A stretch of DNA of 64,000 nucleotides from Sulfurimonas hydrogeniphila. GTDB taxonomy: Bacteria > Campylobacterota > Campylobacteria > Campylobacterales > Sulfurimonadaceae. Positions 48,702-56,000 of this stretch are shown here, in pieces (within the stretch, counting starts at the first letter, position 1; every line of letters starts with the position of its first letter). The stretch is from assembly GCF_009068765.1 (NCBI RefSeq), contig NZ_CP035534.1, forward strand, positions 496,001 to 560,000. The letters run 5' to 3'. The notes beneath the pieces were generated by a model. It did no database searches. It saw nothing but the letters and a program-made list of their open reading frames with translations, and had not been told where the DNA came from. A program made the translations under genes and the position numbers.

Positions 48702-49562
48702 ATGCAAAACTCTCCTCTTTCTAAAATTATTTTAGAAGAGAGAGAGTTTTTTGTCAAACGCGATGACCTCATTGACCCCTGTTTGGCAGGGAACAAATAC
48801 AGAAAACTCTACACGCTCTTAAATACTCCAGACAACATTTATGATACGCTGATATCCTACGGCGGAACACAGTCTAATGCTATGCTGGCGTTGGCCGCCT
48901 TGTGTCAGAAAAAAAAATGGAAATTTCTTTACTATACAAAAAAACTCTCTGCAACACAAAAAGAGCAAGGCAGCGGAAACTATGCGCATGCGCTGAAATT
49001 AGGTATGCAGCATAGAGAGATAGAAAATGATTTTTATAAAGAGTTTATTGCTTCTTTGCGCTTACATGTAAATGCAAAAACCTGTTTTGTTGATCAGGGT
49101 GGCGCAGTACAGGAAGCAAAAACAGGATTGGAAGTTTTAGCGCAGGAGATACAGGAACAAAGCAGAGACTTACATGTAAAGGCAGTCGCAACACCTTCCG
49201 GTACAGGGACAACAGCACTTTTTTTAGCACTTGCTTTACCTGAGTACAGAGTTTATACAACACCCTGCATAGGGGACAGCAGCTATCTCAAAAAGCAAAT
49301 GCGTGCTTTGGCAGAAATTCCGGACAATCTTGTTATCCTGGAACCAAAGAGAAAATACCATTTTGCAAAACCCTATAAGGAGTTTTATGAGATATACAAG
49401 GCTTTACATGTAAAGGGAATTGAGTTTGATTTACTTTATGCTCCGGCAATGTGGCAGGCACTTTTGGAACAAACTGATGAAAAAATTATGTATATACATA
49501 GCGGCGGAGTGAGCGGTAACAAAAGTATGCTTGCTCGTTATGAGAAAAAAGGACTCATATAA
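48702..49562 (+). CDS. PLP-dependent ACC deaminase/D-cysteine desulfhydrase-like protein
   Basis: 286 residues of the tryptophan-synthase-beta fold. The PLP-binding Lys lies in CLAGNKYRKL, followed by SYGGTQSNAMLALAA and the phosphate-binding VATPSGTGTTALFLA. The family includes ACC deaminase and D-cysteine desulfhydrase; the substrate is not determined here. The gene contains three copies of the ACATGTAA motif. Its stop codon (49560-49562) lies inside the first attC-like element, which marks one border of the accessory block. Confidence 0.85.
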   Translation: MQNSPLSKIILEEREFFVKRDDLIDPCLAGNKYRKLYTLLNTPDNIYDTLISYGGTQSNAMLALAALCQKKKWKFLYYTKKLSATQKEQGSGNYAHALKLGMQHREIENDFYKEFIASLRLHVNAKTCFVDQGGAVQEAKTGLEVLAQEIQEQSRDLHVKAVATPSGTGTTALFLALALPEYRVYTTPCIGDSSYLKKQMRALAEIPDNLVILEPKRKYHFAKPYKEFYEIYKALHVKGIEFDLLYAPAMWQALLEQTDEKIMYIHSGGVSGNKSMLARYEKKGLI

Positions 49563-49645
49563 CGGAGGCGCGGTGAGCGGATAACGACTGAAGATAGCCA
49601 ATACATTGCCGTTAGGTAATTTATTGGATACTCTGTTTTGTTATA
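49557..49645. repeat. attC-like element 1 (downstream of the AAA/TOPRIM gene)
   Basis: An 89-base imperfect palindrome bounded by ATAAC (from 49559) and GTTATA (49640-49645), with ends related to the integron attC core AAC/GTT. It contains ATAACGGAGGCGCGG, GTGAGCGGATAACGA and, 21 bases later, CCGTTAG. The same blocks at the same 21-base spacing recur in element 2. The outer end lies 4 bases from the stop of the minus-strand gene at 49650. Confidence 0.5.
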
Positions 49646-49649
49646 CTTT

Positions 49650-51122
49650 TCATGAAAGCTGTTTTTTTAAAAACAAAGAAATTTTATCTAAACTCACTCT
49701 GTCATTTTCAAATAAATAAGCAACAATAATCTCTACAATTTCACTTCTACTTTTATTTCTAGCTCTTAATTCAGTATCAATGTGATTGTAAAACTTTTTA
49801 CCATTGTTGTCTTTTGTAGTAGCTACTTCTGTTTTATATTCATCAATTATAGTTTTAAGACTTTTTTGATGAAAAATAAAATCATTTAATTCTCTAAATA
49901 GTTTATGGTCAACATTATCATATAGTTTAGATTTTAGATATTTTTCTAAACTTTCAATTGGTAAATAATTCAATGGAATATTGTTTGTTATCCCTTGCTT
50001 AGTAATATACTTTTGTGCTTCTTTTTTAACATCCCCATCTAGCACAATAGAAATACTTGAAGTTTTACCAATTAAATTACTAGCCACAACTTCTTGTGCT
50101 AAATCTATAACATTAGTATATCCTCCACAAGGAAGAATATGAATAAGTCGATTTGAATGTAGTTTTTCTTCTTTTAGTATTCTTTTAATAATCTCTTTTG
50201 CTAAGTCATCTTCAACAAGTATTACATAATCATATCCTGAATGGTCGTAAAGTATTCTTGTCGCATATGAAGGATAACAAGGATTTAATACTTCTAAACT
50301 ATCATCTGCATATCTTTCAAGAAAAAAGATATTTTCAGGTGTAATACCACTAATAAGTTCTATAGAGTGAGTAGAAAAATAAATTGCATAATTATATTCA
50401 ATAGCAATTTCTTTTAAAAATGCCACTAATCTTTTTAAAGACGATGGATGCAAAGCCAATTCAATTTCATCTAAAAATAATATACATGGTTTTAATAAAC
50501 TAGCTCTATCACTATTTCTAATATTAATAGAATTTAGAACACTGATTAAAAGGTTTTCTCCAGTAGACATGTGAAACTGACTAATTCTTTTACTTCCTTT
50601 TTGATAATAAAAAATATCACCACGAAAATTAACTTCAGAGCCTGCATTAGAATTATTTAATTTAAAAACTTTATCATAAAAGCTTATATTATTATGCAGT
50701 ATTTTTCCTAAGTTTTCGCGAATAAAATCATCAACATTTTCAAGTTCTTTATTACCAATTTTATCTAAACTTTTCAATGTTCTATAATCTGTATTTTTAA
50801 ATCTGTTTCCAAAAATTATTGAGCCTTCATAAAATCCTTTAACATTCATTTTTCCATCTGAAGACTGTTCCCATTTACCATTGTTTTTTTTCCATGCACG
50901 AGTTGCATTATTAAGAGAAAATTTGATAAATGCATCATCATCAGTTTCACCAAAATAGTCATTCATTGGCATATTAAAAAATACACTGGAAGCACATGTT
51001 ACTAAAGTACTTTTACCAGCACCATTTTGACCTGTAATTGCATATAAACCTTTATCAATAGGTAATTCTATTTCAAGATTATTGATAGATTTGATTTTGT
51101 TAATTGATATTTTCAATTTCAT
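49650..51122 (-). CDS. OLD-like AAA-ATPase with C-terminal TOPRIM nuclease domain
   Basis: About 490 residues (start at 51122, or 51134 for four more). The N-terminal half is an ABC/SMC-type ATPase: Walker A GQNGAGKST (about 31-39), signature MSTGE, Walker B PCILFLDEIELALHP, H-loop FSTHS. The C-terminal half has TOPRIM-type acids in VILVEDDLAKE and VLDGDVKKE. This is the layout of OLD-family nucleases, many of which act in phage defence. It is AT-rich relative to its neighbours, flanked by attC-like elements and a hairpin. No partner helicase of the Gabija type is visible. Confidence 0.8.
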   Translation of the reverse strand: MKLKISINKIKSINNLEIELPIDKGLYAITGQNGAGKSTLVTCASSVFFNMPMNDYFGETDDDAFIKFSLNNATRAWKKNNGKWEQSSDGKMNVKGFYEGSIIFGNRFKNTDYRTLKSLDKIGNKELENVDDFIRENLGKILHNNISFYDKVFKLNNSNAGSEVNFRGDIFYYQKGSKRISQFHMSTGENLLISVLNSINIRNSDRASLLKPCILFLDEIELALHPSSLKRLVAFLKEIAIEYNYAIYFSTHSIELISGITPENIFFLERYADDSLEVLNPCYPSYATRILYDHSGYDYVILVEDDLAKEIIKRILKEEKLHSNRLIHILPCGGYTNVIDLAQEVVASNLIGKTSSISIVLDGDVKKEAQKYITKQGITNNIPLNYLPIESLEKYLKSKLYDNVDHKLFRELNDFIFHQKSLKTIIDEYKTEVATTKDNNGKKFYNHIDTELRARNKSRSEIVEIIVAYLFENDRVSLDKISLFLKKQLS

Positions 51123-51148
51123 ATATATTTCCATTTATTTATTTTTTA

Positions 51149-51277
51149 GGATAACGGAGGCGCGGGTGTTCAACCCGCGCCTCCGTTATCCGGTCACGTA
51201 GTGAGCGGATAACGATTGTCGTGAGCAATAATTTTCCCGTTAGAGTCAATTATTGATCTCCTCGTACTTGTTATATC
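51149..51277. repeat. attC-like element 2, containing a perfect 19-base hairpin
   Basis: A 129-base element with GGATAAC at one end and GTTATATC (51270-51277) at the other, 2 bases from the stop of the interrupted gene at 51280. It shares GTGAGCGGATAACGA and CCGTTAG (21 bases apart) with element 1. An inner inverted repeat, CAATAATT / AATTATTG, flanks CCGTTAG. At 51149-51191, GGATAACGGAGGCGCGGGT pairs perfectly with its complement across a 5-base loop (GTTCA). Confidence 0.5.
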
Positions 51278-51279
51278 TT

Positions 51280-52112
51280 TTACTTTTTCTGGTGCATGCA
51301 TTGGCTTAAATCAGAATTATCCATTTTCACATAACCTTTAGCAACTATATAATATCTAGAAAACTGATTTGCAAAACACAATATTAAGGATGTTGCTTCT
51401 TTTAAATCTATTATAGGTGTAATTCTTTTTGGTTTTTTTGCATGTCCACCATGTCTAGCATTTATACCTAGAACAACTGGATTATTACAGGCAGATGTAA
51501 AGCGTTCTAAATCTTTTAAGTTAATTAATGATTCCAATGTAATATCAACCTCTTTAGAACCATATTTTATTGTATCTACAATCTTGTACAATGTATTCCA
51601 TGTTAGAATTTTATCTGTAAAACTATTGCTTGAAATCACTCCTGCTTGAAATAATAATGTTCTAATAACAAAATCTATTTTAGAGATATTAAATAGTGTT
51701 GCGTCGAATGTAGATGGGAGCTTAATCTTAGGATTATTCGTATAATATTCTTCATTATGCAGAAATGGATATTCTTCTATTGAATCACTCCATAAAGACA
51801 TGCCATTATTAGGTTCTATTCCCAGTTCTTTATTCTCAATATGGTAATTAGAAAATTTAATATTTGGTGGAGTCATTTTTGAGGAAACAAAGATAGCTCC
51901 ATTAAAAAGAATATTTAAGCTAATTAATCGTTTATTTAATTCTTCTTTTTTTTTAGTCCTTCAATATGAGGGGAATAAGCTGAAAATATAATTTGATCTA
52001 AATGGTCATAGTCAAAAGTTAAGTGTAAGTCATGTGATTTCCAACTTTGTGTCATACCTCTAAGATAGATATGATGGTCTAGAATAATTTCAATTTCACG
52101 TGTGTCTATCAT
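51280..52112 (-). pseudogene. Cassette gene of unknown function interrupted at a run of nine A
   Basis: An ATG at 52112 behind AGAGAGG opens a 58-codon frame (MIDTREIEIILDHHIYLRGM). It ends at 51936, shortly after nine A (T on the plus strand, 51946-51954). One extra A would join it to the downstream frame, which reads EELNKRLISLNILFNGAIF and on to 51280. The fused protein would have about 277 residues. The part from ATG 51876 alone encodes 198. Near the C-terminus, LGINARHGGHAKKP followed by a helical end vaguely recalls HEPN-type proteins. No function is claimed. It may be phase-variable, truncated or a sequencing error. Confidence 0.6.
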
Positions 52113-52146
52113 TGTGCCTCTCTTTAGCTGATAATGTTTTTTAAGT

Positions 52147-52200
52147 GATATAACAAAAAGTGGGTGGCACGTTTAGGGCTCAGCTACGTTTTGTTATATC
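52147..52200. repeat. attC-like element 3 (short)
   Basis: GATATAACAAAA (52147-52158) pairs perfectly with TTTTGTTATATC (52189-52200) around a 30-base centre that contains a further imperfect pairing (GTGGC / GCTAC). It ends 8 bases before the stop of the lipoprotein gene at 52209. The TTGTTATATCTTTTAC border is shared with element 2 and, less exactly, element 1. Confidence 0.5.
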
Positions 52201-52208
52201 TTTTACAT

Positions 52209-52958
52209 TTAATTATAATCTTTTATAACTTTATATGTAATATTCATATTTGTTGCTTTTAAGACTTTGATTCGTAGTCCTTTGAAACCGATTATTGTTT
52301 TTCCATCTTTTTCTAACTCGTATTCAATATCTTGCGTAAATGCTGGTCTTGCCATATTGTCTTTAAATTCTCTAAATGAGATTTTTATAAGATTTCCTTT
52401 TTTACCTTGATATAAAGCTACATATTTAAATGAGTCTTCTGTATAAATAGGTTTAGATTTTTCCAATTTATATTTAGTTGATTGATCTAATTTAACAAAA
52501 TCCTTACTCCCTTGTGTAGTCAAATATGTAAAAGTATTATCATTGTTCATATCTATTAAACAATCATAAGGAGAATAACACATTGCATTTTTTCCTTCAA
52601 CATTTCTTAATAAGTGCCATGAATCGTATGGATAGAGCGTTTTAGTGACTTTGACTCCCAATGAAGTGACTGGAAGAGTTTCTGATGAATCGATACTGAT
52701 TCCATATCTACTACCTTTTGCGACACCTTCTAAAATTACTTTCTGTGTTGTTGGATTTATCAAATAAGACTTACTATACATATTTTGTCCTATTTCAGCT
52801 GTAGTAATTTTATTTAACTTAGGATCTCGTATTACAGTTCCTGGACCATTTGGATCCACAATATGACGAATTGATGGATTTATTTGTGGACCGCTACTAC
52901 ACCCTACTAACATCAATGTCCCTGCAATCGCGAATGATACAATTAACTTTCTTTCCAT
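52209..52958 (-). CDS. Lipoprotein of unknown function in a cassette-like setting
   Basis: 249 residues. The N-terminus (RKLIVSFAIAGTLMLVGC) is a lipoprotein signal with Cys at the lipobox. The mature protein is rich in predicted beta strands (KGSRYGISIDSSETLPVTSL) and has a Cys pair in NAMCYSPYDCLID. No family is recognised. It is an AT-rich gene with an attC-like element just past its stop. Cassette lipoproteins of unknown role are common in chromosomal integrons. Confidence 0.65.
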   Translation of the reverse strand: MERKLIVSFAIAGTLMLVGCSSGPQINPSIRHIVDPNGPGTVIRDPKLNKITTAEIGQNMYSKSYLINPTTQKVILEGVAKGSRYGISIDSSETLPVTSLGVKVTKTLYPYDSWHLLRNVEGKNAMCYSPYDCLIDMNNDNTFTYLTTQGSKDFVKLDQSTKYKLEKSKPIYTEDSFKYVALYQGKKGNLIKISFREFKDNMARPAFTQDIEYELEKDGKTIIGFKGLRIKVLKATNMNITYKVIKDYN

Positions 52959-53423
52959 TTTATTTTACTCCAAAAATTCAATTTACCTAATTTACATTTA
53001 TAAATAGGCATATTCAAATTTCCAGATAATGTGGCTTCTTGGATATAACTATTCTATCAACGAACATTATAACACAAATGACTCATATATTAAAAAATAA
53101 ATGAACACCAATAATGTTAGTTTATTGGAAATTTTATTGTGGTTTGTCATGTTTTTGATGATTTATGAAAATAATGACTGTTATGCTTAAAAATAAAGTG
53201 TGCTTTTATTGCTGAATTGACTAATATTTGAACAAAGTGTTTGTTCCTTTAGGTAGGAGAGATTATTATGAGTGCTAAAAAAATCTAATGAATGATTTTG
53301 CTTAACTTCCTTGACAAATAAAGACTCAGGTCGGTATAATTGTAACGCTTTGCAACTAAAGTAGCAAAATGATATTTTGCAAAAAGGTATACTTTCAGCA
53401 TAAATAAAAAAAAGGATTGAGAG
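52959..53423. other. Non-coding stretch between the accessory block and clpB
   Basis: 465 AT-rich bases. They hold the clpB promoter (53311-53340), a 29-codon hydrophobic ORF without a ribosome site (53101-53190), and a six-codon ORF (53268-53288) behind a strong AGGAGA. GATATAAC occurs at about 53047, but no matching arm was found, so no fourth attC-like element is called. The stretch may contain the right-hand border of the accessory block. Confidence 0.5.
53311..53340 (+). promoter_or_regulatory. Consensus sigma-70 promoter for clpB
   Basis: TTGACA (53311-53316) and TATAAT (53335-53340) are separated by 18 bases. They imply a transcript starting near 53347 and a 5' leader of about 75 bases. 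Both boxes are perfect, which is notable in a phylum where -35 boxes are usually weak. No CIRCE or HAIR inverted repeat is visible nearby. Confidence 0.75.
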
Positions 53424-56000
53424 ATGAATAACATTTTTGAGAAACTAACACATAATATGACAGAGGCGATTGAGAGTGCGTTGTCTTTAGCTTTACATAA
53501 CAAAAATCAGGAAGTGACACCGGTACACTTTTTGTGGGCACTTTTAACAAATTCGGATTCTGTACTGAACCAAATGTTTAACAAGTTGGGTATAGATAAA
53601 GTCGCAATGGAATTAGATATTAAAAGTATGGCAGAAAAACTGCCAAAATCTTCAAGTGTGACAAAAGAAAATATCAAACTTTCCCAGGATTTTGTACGAA
53701 CACTTGAAAACGGTATAGGTCTGATGACAAAAAACGGAGATTTTTATCTTGCTGTAGATACATATATATTAGCAAATTTAAATACAGAGCCGTTTTCAAC
53801 AATACTGCCAAAATATGTTGATGTCATGCAGTTGAGCAAAGAGCTTGAAGCAGCTCGCGGCGGTGCGAAAATTGATTCGCAAACAGCGGATGAAACATTA
53901 GAGGCACTTTCCAAGTATGGTATTGACTTGACAAAAGAAGCAGCGGAGGGAAAACTCGCACCGGTTATCGGACGTGATGAAGAGATAGCACGAACAATGC
54001 AGATTCTGATCCGTAAAACGAAAAACAACCCAATGCTTCTAGGAGAGCCTGGGGTTGGTAAAACAGCACTGGTTGAAGGACTTGCACAGAGAATTCAAAG
54101 TGGCAATGTTCCAACTTCTTTACAGAACAAGCGTGTGGTTGCGCTTGATATGTCGGCATTGATAGCCGGTGCAAAATACCGTGGTGAGTTTGAAGACAGA
54201 CTCAAAGCGGTTATAGATGAAGTCAAAGAAAACGGGAATATTATTCTGTTTATTGACGAAATTCATACTATAGTCGGTGCCGGAGCATCAGAGGGTTCAA
54301 TGGATGCGGCAAACATCCTGAAACCTGCGCTTGCCCGTGGAGAACTCCATACTATAGGTGCAACGACGCTCAAAGAGTACAGAAAATATTTTGAAAAAGA
54401 TGCTGCATTGCAACGCCGTTTCCTGCCGATCGCTGTGGATGAACCGAGTGTAAACCAGTCACTGCAGATTCTTCGCGGAATCAAAGAGAGATTGGAAGCT
54501 CACCATAATGTGAGTATTGCAGACAGTGCATTGGTCGCTGCGGCAAAACTCTCTGACAGATATATAGCAGACAGATTCTTGCCGGATAAAGCGATCGATC
54601 TGATCGATGAAGCAGCAGCGGAACTCAAAATGCAAATAGAGTCTGAACCAAATGAACTGAGTGCTGCAAAACGCAAGCTCTCAGAGCTTATGGTTGAAAA
54701 AGAAGCACTGAAGATGGAAGAGACACCTGCGAATAAAAAGCGACTTGAAGAGATAGAAAAAGAGTTGGCTGATATTGAAGAAAAAGTAAGAAAACTTGAG
54801 TCTCAGTTCCAAACAGAAAAAGAGGTGTTTGAAAAAATCTCAGCTATTAAAGCTGAAATAGAAGCAAAACGCCGTGAAGCAGAGCTTGCAAAAAGCCGTT
54901 CTGAATTTAACCGTGCTGCAGAAATTGAGTATGGAGAAATTCCAAAACTCATTGAAGAAGAAAAAGCCTTAAATGAGCAGTGGAACAGAATGCAGGCAGA
55001 GGGAACTCTCTTGAAAAATTCTGTTGATGAAGAGTCGATTGCTTCTATTGTCAGCAGATGGACAGGTATTCCTGTAAATAAAATGCTGCAAAGCGAGAAA
55101 GACAAGATCCTGCATGTCGAAGATGTGCTGAATGAAACGGTTGTAGGACAGTCACAGGCGACGCATGCTGTTGCTCGTGCTATTAAACGCAACAAAGCAG
55201 GTCTGAGCGACAAAAACAGACCTATAGGCAGCTTTATGTTCCTTGGGCCAACAGGTGTCGGTAAAACACAGACTGCAAAAACTTTGGCAAAATTCTTGTT
55301 TGACTCTGAGGATGCGCTCATTAGAATTGATATGAGTGAATATATGGAAAAACATGCTGTGTCACGCTTGGTCGGTGCAGCTCCTGGATATGTCGGCTAT
55401 GAAGAGGGAGGACAGCTTACAGAGGCTGTAAGAAGAAAACCTTATTCTGTTGTACTTTTTGATGAAGTGGAAAAGGCACATCCTGATGTGTTCAATATGC
55501 TTCTTCAGGTGCTTGATGACGGGCGTTTGACAGACAACAAAGGTGTTACGGTTGATTTTAGCAATACTATTATCATCCTGACATCAAATATTGCAAGTGA
55601 CAAAATTATCACTCATTCAGGAAGTCCTGAACTTGAAGGCATGGTTATGGCCGAACTCAAAAAAGCCTTTAAACCTGAATTTTTGAACAGACTTGATGAA
55701 GTGGTAATCTTTAATGCGCTTGGCAAAGAACAAATTAAAGGGATTGTCGATATATTCTTTAACGAGATTGTCAACAAAGTTAAAGAGAGAAATATTGAAC
55801 TTTCTTTAAGTGAAGAGGCAAAAGAGTATATTGCAGAAGCCGGATTTGATCCTGTATACGGAGCACGTCCGCTCAAACGAGCATTGTACGAAATTGTGGA
55901 AGACCGTTTGGCTGACTTGATTCTTGAAGGGACAGTGAAAGAGGGCTCTCATGTTGAATTTACCGTTGTAAACGGTGAGGTGGAAGTTAAGGTTTCTTAA
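53424..56000 (+). CDS. clpB: Protein disaggregase ClpB
   Basis: 858 residues, a heat-shock Hsp100 that resolubilises aggregates with DnaK. It has an N-terminal Clp repeat domain, AAA1 with [15 protein letters not shown], the coiled-coil M domain (about 405-520, Lys/Glu-rich), and AAA2 with [15 protein letters not shown] and [13 protein letters not shown]. The C-terminus [15 protein letters not shown] is typical. It is transcribed from the consensus promoter at 53311. Confidence 0.97.

Follow-up and report, generated by a model that had tools for sequence, protein, structure and literature searches.

The window analysed here is a 64-kb stretch of the Sulfurimonas hydrogeniphila genome (G000:C1:496001-560000, on a single contig of 2,342,011 bp), in which a minus-strand array of gene cassettes separates two plus-strand genes: one for a pyridoxal phosphate (PLP)-dependent enzyme (48702..49562; PF00291 match at E 2e-7, slightly below cut-off) and clpB (53424..56000). 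These native flanks adjoin each other in relatives of this bacterium. The inserted block, which we read as a chromosomal integron that has very probably lost its integrase, extends in window coordinates from 49563, the first base 3' of the PLP stop codon, to approximately 53288, attI included. Read along the minus strand, it consists of attI, a lipoprotein cassette ended by attC3, a frameshifted cassette ended by attC2, a shrunken cassette without open reading frame (ORF), an ATPase-TOPRIM cassette ended by attC1, and a 22-nt remnant of an ORF-less cassette (49563..49584, TTATCCGCTCAC|CGCGCCTCCG) flanked by two G^TT cores. The terminal core site of the array directly abuts the TAA stop of the PLP gene (49560-49562).

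An initial annotation of this DNA had described three minus-strand inverted-repeat elements following gene stops as attC-like sites. All three are present, located 6, 6 and 12 nt past the stop codons for attC1 (49582..49643; ORF 49650-51134), attC2 (51210..51273; ORF 51280-51876) and attC3 (52151..52196; ORF 52209-52958), respectively. The details it reported also agree with the sequence: ATAACGGAGGCGCGG occurs three times and GTGAGCGGATAACG twice in the 64 kb (both strands), elements 1 and 2 have CCGTTAG in common at an identical 21-nt spacing, the borders TTGTTATA(T)CTTTT are found, and the arms of element 3 are 12 nt long and perfect. These shared blocks, spacings and borders are far beyond chance. 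A covariance model with an attC-type structure (model R1), derived from 15 aligned attC sites of the other arrays of this genome with the window elements excluded, matched attC1 (74 bits, E 2.1e-18) and attC2 (47.9 bits, E 8.7e-11), and no third locus in the window. In the fold of the 15 training sites, 86.7% of the cells are paired versus 29-45% when the partners are slid, and the covariation score of the alignment is 0.247 versus 0.02-0.06 for slid partners. The third element, which belongs to a short type, was identified by its homology to a short attC of the integrase-linked array (G000:C1:1137890-1137937), both sites displaying TAACAAAAC..AGCTGAG.CCTAAACGTGCCAC.

The elements are not scattered along the chromosome: genome-wide, model R1 detected 17 strong sites in four clusters only, at 545-547 kb (the window), 1127-1140 kb, 1229-1235 kb and 2247-2249 kb. 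Relatives of attC1 are found in three other arrays of this genome, relatives of attC2 likewise occur in other arrays, and relaxed matches added more attC types, both short and long, to the 1125-1140 kb array. This integrase-linked array also contains long attC sites of approximately 129 nt with a conserved interior (G000:C1:1125798-1125926, 1128020-1128149 and 1129856-1129984). Conserved AAC/GTT cores, a palindromic fold and a placement after cassette genes complete the resemblance to attC sites. The elements annotated initially are thus genuine, but the striking GC-rich blocks common to the first two lie outside the attC hairpins and are relics of an ORF-less cassette.

The opposite end of the array retains an attI site. 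The region 53046-53241 displays 89% identity over 196 nt to the attI region upstream of intI in genome G093 (E 4e-70), and 77% identity over 208 nt to the intI locus of G084, which places attI and the intI/attI intergenic region at 53049..53250 on the minus strand. On this strand attI reads TATAATGTTCGTTGATAGAATAG^TT, with its core G^TT at 53047-53049, and a TATAAT motif inside the attI region (53066-53071) is probably the -10 box of the cassette promoter (Pc). No functional intI stands beside this attI; a plus-strand stretch at 53250..53288, composed of a ribosome-binding site, an ATG and five codons (MSAKKI*), is the probable start remnant of a deleted intI. It occupies the position equivalent to that of the intI starts at loci L244 and L238 (MSVKKK...), and AGGAGAGATTATTATGAGTGCTAAAAAAATCTAA, found at the expected start, is similar to the intact start ATTATGAGTGTAAAAAAGAAAC of L238. 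We read the block as an integron with a deleted intI because of this resemblance and because graded intI fragments are found elsewhere in the genus. The stretch 53100-53150 was also considered as a decayed fourth attC, and was rejected as the alignment places it in the intI/attI intergenic region.

The array holds more than one attC site and no integrase gene nearby, and in this sense the initial description as a cluster of attC sites lacking integrase (CALIN) holds. Yet it is not a bare cluster: it keeps attI and the probable first codons of intI, and is therefore better described as an integron minus its integrase than as cassettes in a foreign site. Similarly, the block does begin at the base following the PLP stop codon, as first proposed, but is longer than reported. 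The comparison with related genomes suggested at that stage yielded an empty site: PLP and clpB are separated by approximately 130 bp in L095/G093, L052/G043 and L054/G037 (PLP identity to the window of 95%, 93% and 81%, respectively), versus 3.86 kb in the window. In G033, another gene lies between the two.

Taken together, these results point with high likelihood to 49563-53288 as a chromosomal integron from which the integrase has been lost and in which relics of an ORF-less cassette family persist. We counted as established the attC homology, the attI homology, the empty site, the deletion pattern, the cassette boundaries and the covariation of the fold; further support comes from the genome itself, which encodes an integron integrase associated with an array of its own. 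Several observations nevertheless weigh against it. Model R1 did not match attC3 in the 64-kb window, the attI core is slightly degenerate (GTTGATAGAATAG where GTTGAATAAATAG is expected), and the intI remnant is only approximately 40 nt long. The closest relatives are devoid of any array in the PLP-clpB interval, whereas the more distant G026, and probably G007, possess one. Finally, no movement of the window cassettes was observed: in other genomes of the genus, genes related to those of cassettes 1 and 2 are rare and distant and have no R1-type attC.

The distribution of arrays among relatives lends itself to a second explanation, namely that an integron was ancestrally located between PLP and clpB in the genus, inherited vertically and cleanly lost in most species, instead of having been gained in the present lineage. 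G026 (L248) harbours, between these two genes and in the same orientation as the window array, an array with attI, and G007 (L249) has an attI immediately upstream of clpB. Because attI is found there in these two genomes while close relatives are empty, either the interval was struck more than once or an ancestral integron was lost in many species. Such an ancestral locus would be compatible with the loss of the integrase, but we consider it rather unlikely: the two closest relatives (95% and 93% PLP identity) have an empty site, and the window attI resembles the G093 intI locus, whereas those of G026 and G007 are of another type.

Far less likely is a classical CALIN, in which the PLP stop would have served as an attG (non-integron) site for the direct insertion of cassettes, without participation of an attI. 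This was our first reading, in accordance with the clean G^TT core exactly at the stop codon, the empty site of relatives, and insertions at attG documented elsewhere (Loot et al. 2024, as cited in PMC11023631); it was overturned by the attI homology at 53049-53250, which places attI and the intI/attI intergenic region at the other end of the array, next to the probable start remnant of intI. Lastly, ordinary transcription terminators or repetitive extragenic palindromic (REP)-like repeats, which would also be palindromes directly following stop codons, can be dismissed almost entirely, since the genome-wide search returned zero copies beyond the four arrays, AAC/GTT cores, structure and spacing are conserved, and attI and an integrase exist in this genome.

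If the block is indeed an integron deprived of its integrase, an integron integrase would have assembled the array, with folded single-stranded attC sites as its substrates for recombination at attI, and the intI gene adjacent to attI would later have been deleted, leaving its first codons. The search for intI elsewhere in the genome, also proposed with the initial annotation, was successful: a single integron integrase scores above cut-off (1124252-1125154; 378 bits for a cut-off of 265), divergent from the 1125-1140 kb array. Its catalytic-tyrosine motif, ETTMIYTHVVSEMNK in intact relatives, reads ETLKWLHHTFALATVVSAFSARHVVSEMNK, with no tyrosine left. Since this motif is disrupted, we infer that the enzyme is inactive. 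It could once have acted in trans on the window array, which is now probably frozen because the motif of the remaining integrase is broken.

The lesion in this integrase has a particular structure. An in-frame peptide, HHTFALATVVSAFSAR, is inserted at the catalytic-tyrosine motif (G000:C1:1124207-1124269; locus L246, also L244), and a nearly identical 16-residue peptide lies between TMI and YTH in the G093 integrase. The insert, palindromic at the DNA level, resembles a small palindromic element of the in-gene kind, the full length of which is present as a single copy in the S. hydrogeniphila genome.

At the scale of the genus, the attI motif AATGN{3,5}TTGAATAAATAG yielded 89 matches in 53 of 100 genomes, versus 0 for the reversed control. 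When a sample of 30 attI loci was searched by tblastn, five gave a substantial intI (only partly aligned in one case), one gave a C-terminal fragment, and the other 24 gave no match; this search covered the fetched DNA only, and absence is weaker evidence for the loci ending at contig edges. The intermediate cases form a graded series: one locus keeps approximately 20 N-terminal codons, one fuses the first 7 codons of intI to the last 23, and others retain just the 3' end or the start codon. Parallel intI deletions recur throughout the genus.

Several attI loci per genome, most of the sampled ones without integrase and with graded intI deletions, were observed in the Sulfurimonas genomes represented by L214-L243. 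S. hydrogeniphila itself possesses a second integrase-less attI (G000:C1:2250536; L050:12536), with a full ORF-less cassette in first place. In three genomes (L047, L241 and L232), a gene that begins with MIERFYLKDYLSFKE, probably recN, directly adjoins the 3' end of intI or of what is left of it, which suggests that a recN-adjacent position may be the primary integron site of the genus.

The GC-rich blocks of the window stem from this ORF-less cassette, which seems to be barely more than a folded recombination site spreading through Campylobacterota integrons. Full copies are 151-156 nt long, with G^TT cores at both bounds. The shrunken copy of the window (51155..51212, minus strand; 58 nt; model R2, 67.1 bits, E 5e-13) retains the leader hairpin and the outer stem, its interior being deleted, and both of its arms have undergone the same compensatory G-C to A-T change. 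A remnant similar to that at 49563-49584 adjoins another attC of the genome (G000:C1:1231018-1231078). The cassette was detected in 31 of 100 genomes of the genus (E 1e-3 or better), and its covariance model retrieved it in 25 of 397 Campylobacterota genomes, across 11 of 68 genera. All 69 readable left flanks among 70 copies, drawn from 11 Campylobacterota genera, are integron cores, with 27 copies at attI (classified cleanly, by regular expression) and 42 at an attC end (classified by a looser rule plus reading of the flank); the last copy lies at a contig edge. The possibility of an independent transposon was thus discarded, since attI and attC cores were the sole insertion points, always in the same orientation, wherever the left flank could be read.

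The fold of 31 aligned distinct full copies comprises 49 pairs, of which 21 show compensatory changes. Its outer stem is perfectly paired, without the visible unpaired central spacer of a classical attC, the R''/R' cores being present. In 29 of the 31 copies, the core repeats carried by the leader and by an inner arm change in concert (GATAAC, GGCAAC, GACAAC). In the attC-like domain, wobble-type cells of the top strand are A.C in 30 cases and G.T in 2, i.e. G.T wobbles on the bottom strand; as the copies are related, these figures count sequences rather than events. Counted by pair position the ratio is 14 versus 2, and ordinary attC sites lean more weakly in the same direction (17 versus 11). 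Consistently, the bottom strand gives the more stable fold in 31 of 31 copies (mean of -55.8 versus -44.8 kcal/mol, DNA parameters), and the circular single strand is predicted to form a paired rod that encloses the core. One copy is overlapped by a 51-aa ORF, but the variable arms and length changes weigh against a coding role. The window elements and the full copies gave no Rfam match above the gathering score, relaxed thresholds returning chance matches only. A 13-mer reminiscent of a lac operator (GTGAGCGGATAAC) was judged a coincidence, other copies having an unrelated self-complementary stem in its place.

The best reading of these patterns is that the ORF-less unit would be a minimal cassette that owes its spread to being a strong substrate of IntI. 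A fuller version of this proposal is put forward tentatively, and we hold it slightly less likely than its negation: the unit would be self-propagating, its body amounting to the bottom-strand fold and its circular single strand to a rod paired over nearly its whole length, with the recombination core in the helix, and it would live as a preferred substrate of IntI, landing repeatedly at attI across Campylobacterota, including at attI sites without an integrase of their own, which would require service in trans. Alternatively, the cassette could be kept for more than its recombination: it may encode a regulatory RNA or a promoter, with a bottom-strand transcript whose target would be intI or the array. 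The 27 copies of 69 in first position at attI and the fold constrained on the bottom strand are in line with this view, as are the antisense promoters of ORF-less cassettes in Treponema and the small RNA (sRNA) encoded by one in Xanthomonas (PMC8876359). However, many copies are located mid-array, a conserved promoter or terminator was not evident by eye (no systematic scan was made), and the bottom strand is also the one that IntI recombines (PMC11023631), so that its asymmetry is covered by the simpler recombination reading. We regard a regulatory role as the less probable option, with a minor chance of being correct. Beyond this family, other first cassettes at attI are gene-poor too and start with a different self-complementary leader hairpin (L218, L233, L237 and L239), so that several such families may exist, of which this one would be an example.

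The cargo of the window array comprises three genes on the minus strand. That of cassette 3 (49650..51134), the largest, matches the retron-associated ATPase-TOPRIM family (PADLOC ATPase-Toprim_I-B, E 1.5e-43), with AAA_23 and AAA_21 above cut-off; this defence-like protein, an OLD-like ATPase with a probable TOPRIM domain, is plausibly anti-phage. The gene of cassette 2 (51280..52112) is open only from 51876, its upstream part (51877-52112) being in another frame across a poly-A run; this break could reflect a pseudogene, slippage or a sequencing error. Cassette 1 encodes a predicted lipoprotein with a lipobox-like N-terminus (52209..52958). Neither of these two genes matched a Pfam or PADLOC family. 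The former has a single, partial match among the 99 other genomes of the genus and the latter distant relatives in 7 of 99, a rarity in line with expectation for cassette cargo.

Integrase-less arrays are common and their origin is usually guessed; here, attI, the intI remnant and the empty site of sister species make it readable. Many parallel cases, at differing stages of intI decay, are available in the genus. The ORF-less cassette carries more weight: devoid of cargo, with a fold conserved across 11 genera, located only at integron cores and often first, it prompts one to ask if a cassette can be selfish, or if a dedicated non-coding part belongs to integrons. Both questions are testable in cultivable strains such as S. 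autotrophica.

Among known systems, CALINs are a standard IntegronFinder class (PMC9024848), with which the window array shares the presence of several attC sites, the accompanying cassette genes and the absence of an adjacent integrase gene. It differs from them in retaining attI, a probable Pc and the intI start remnant, and its origin by integrase deletion is for this reason directly readable. Deleted or truncated intI genes with retained arrays are documented in Xanthomonas (PMC12444791), where integrase loss is likewise repeated and lineage-specific, and extra arrays occur at other chromosomal loci; the Sulfurimonas genomes searched differ in often having several attI loci each, most of the sampled ones integrase-less, with attI kept at each. 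For S. autotrophica, an In0 and a CALIN are listed from IntegronFinder (PMC10295459), and the part of this listing consulted mentions no attI, ORF-less cassette or pattern of integrase loss. In the openly searchable literature, neither this ORF-less family nor the occurrence in Campylobacterota of multiple attI loci without integrase was found described, and the novelty of both is provisional. ORF-less cassettes as such are known, as promoter cassettes in Treponema and as sRNA-Xcc1 in Xanthomonas (PMC8876359), and share with those described here the absence of a gene, the integron core bounds and, sometimes, the first position in the array. The Campylobacterota family, found in 11 genera and without match in Rfam, differs from them by its compact multi-arm fold, which extends over nearly the whole cassette, and by its leader hairpin, which pairs the upstream core.

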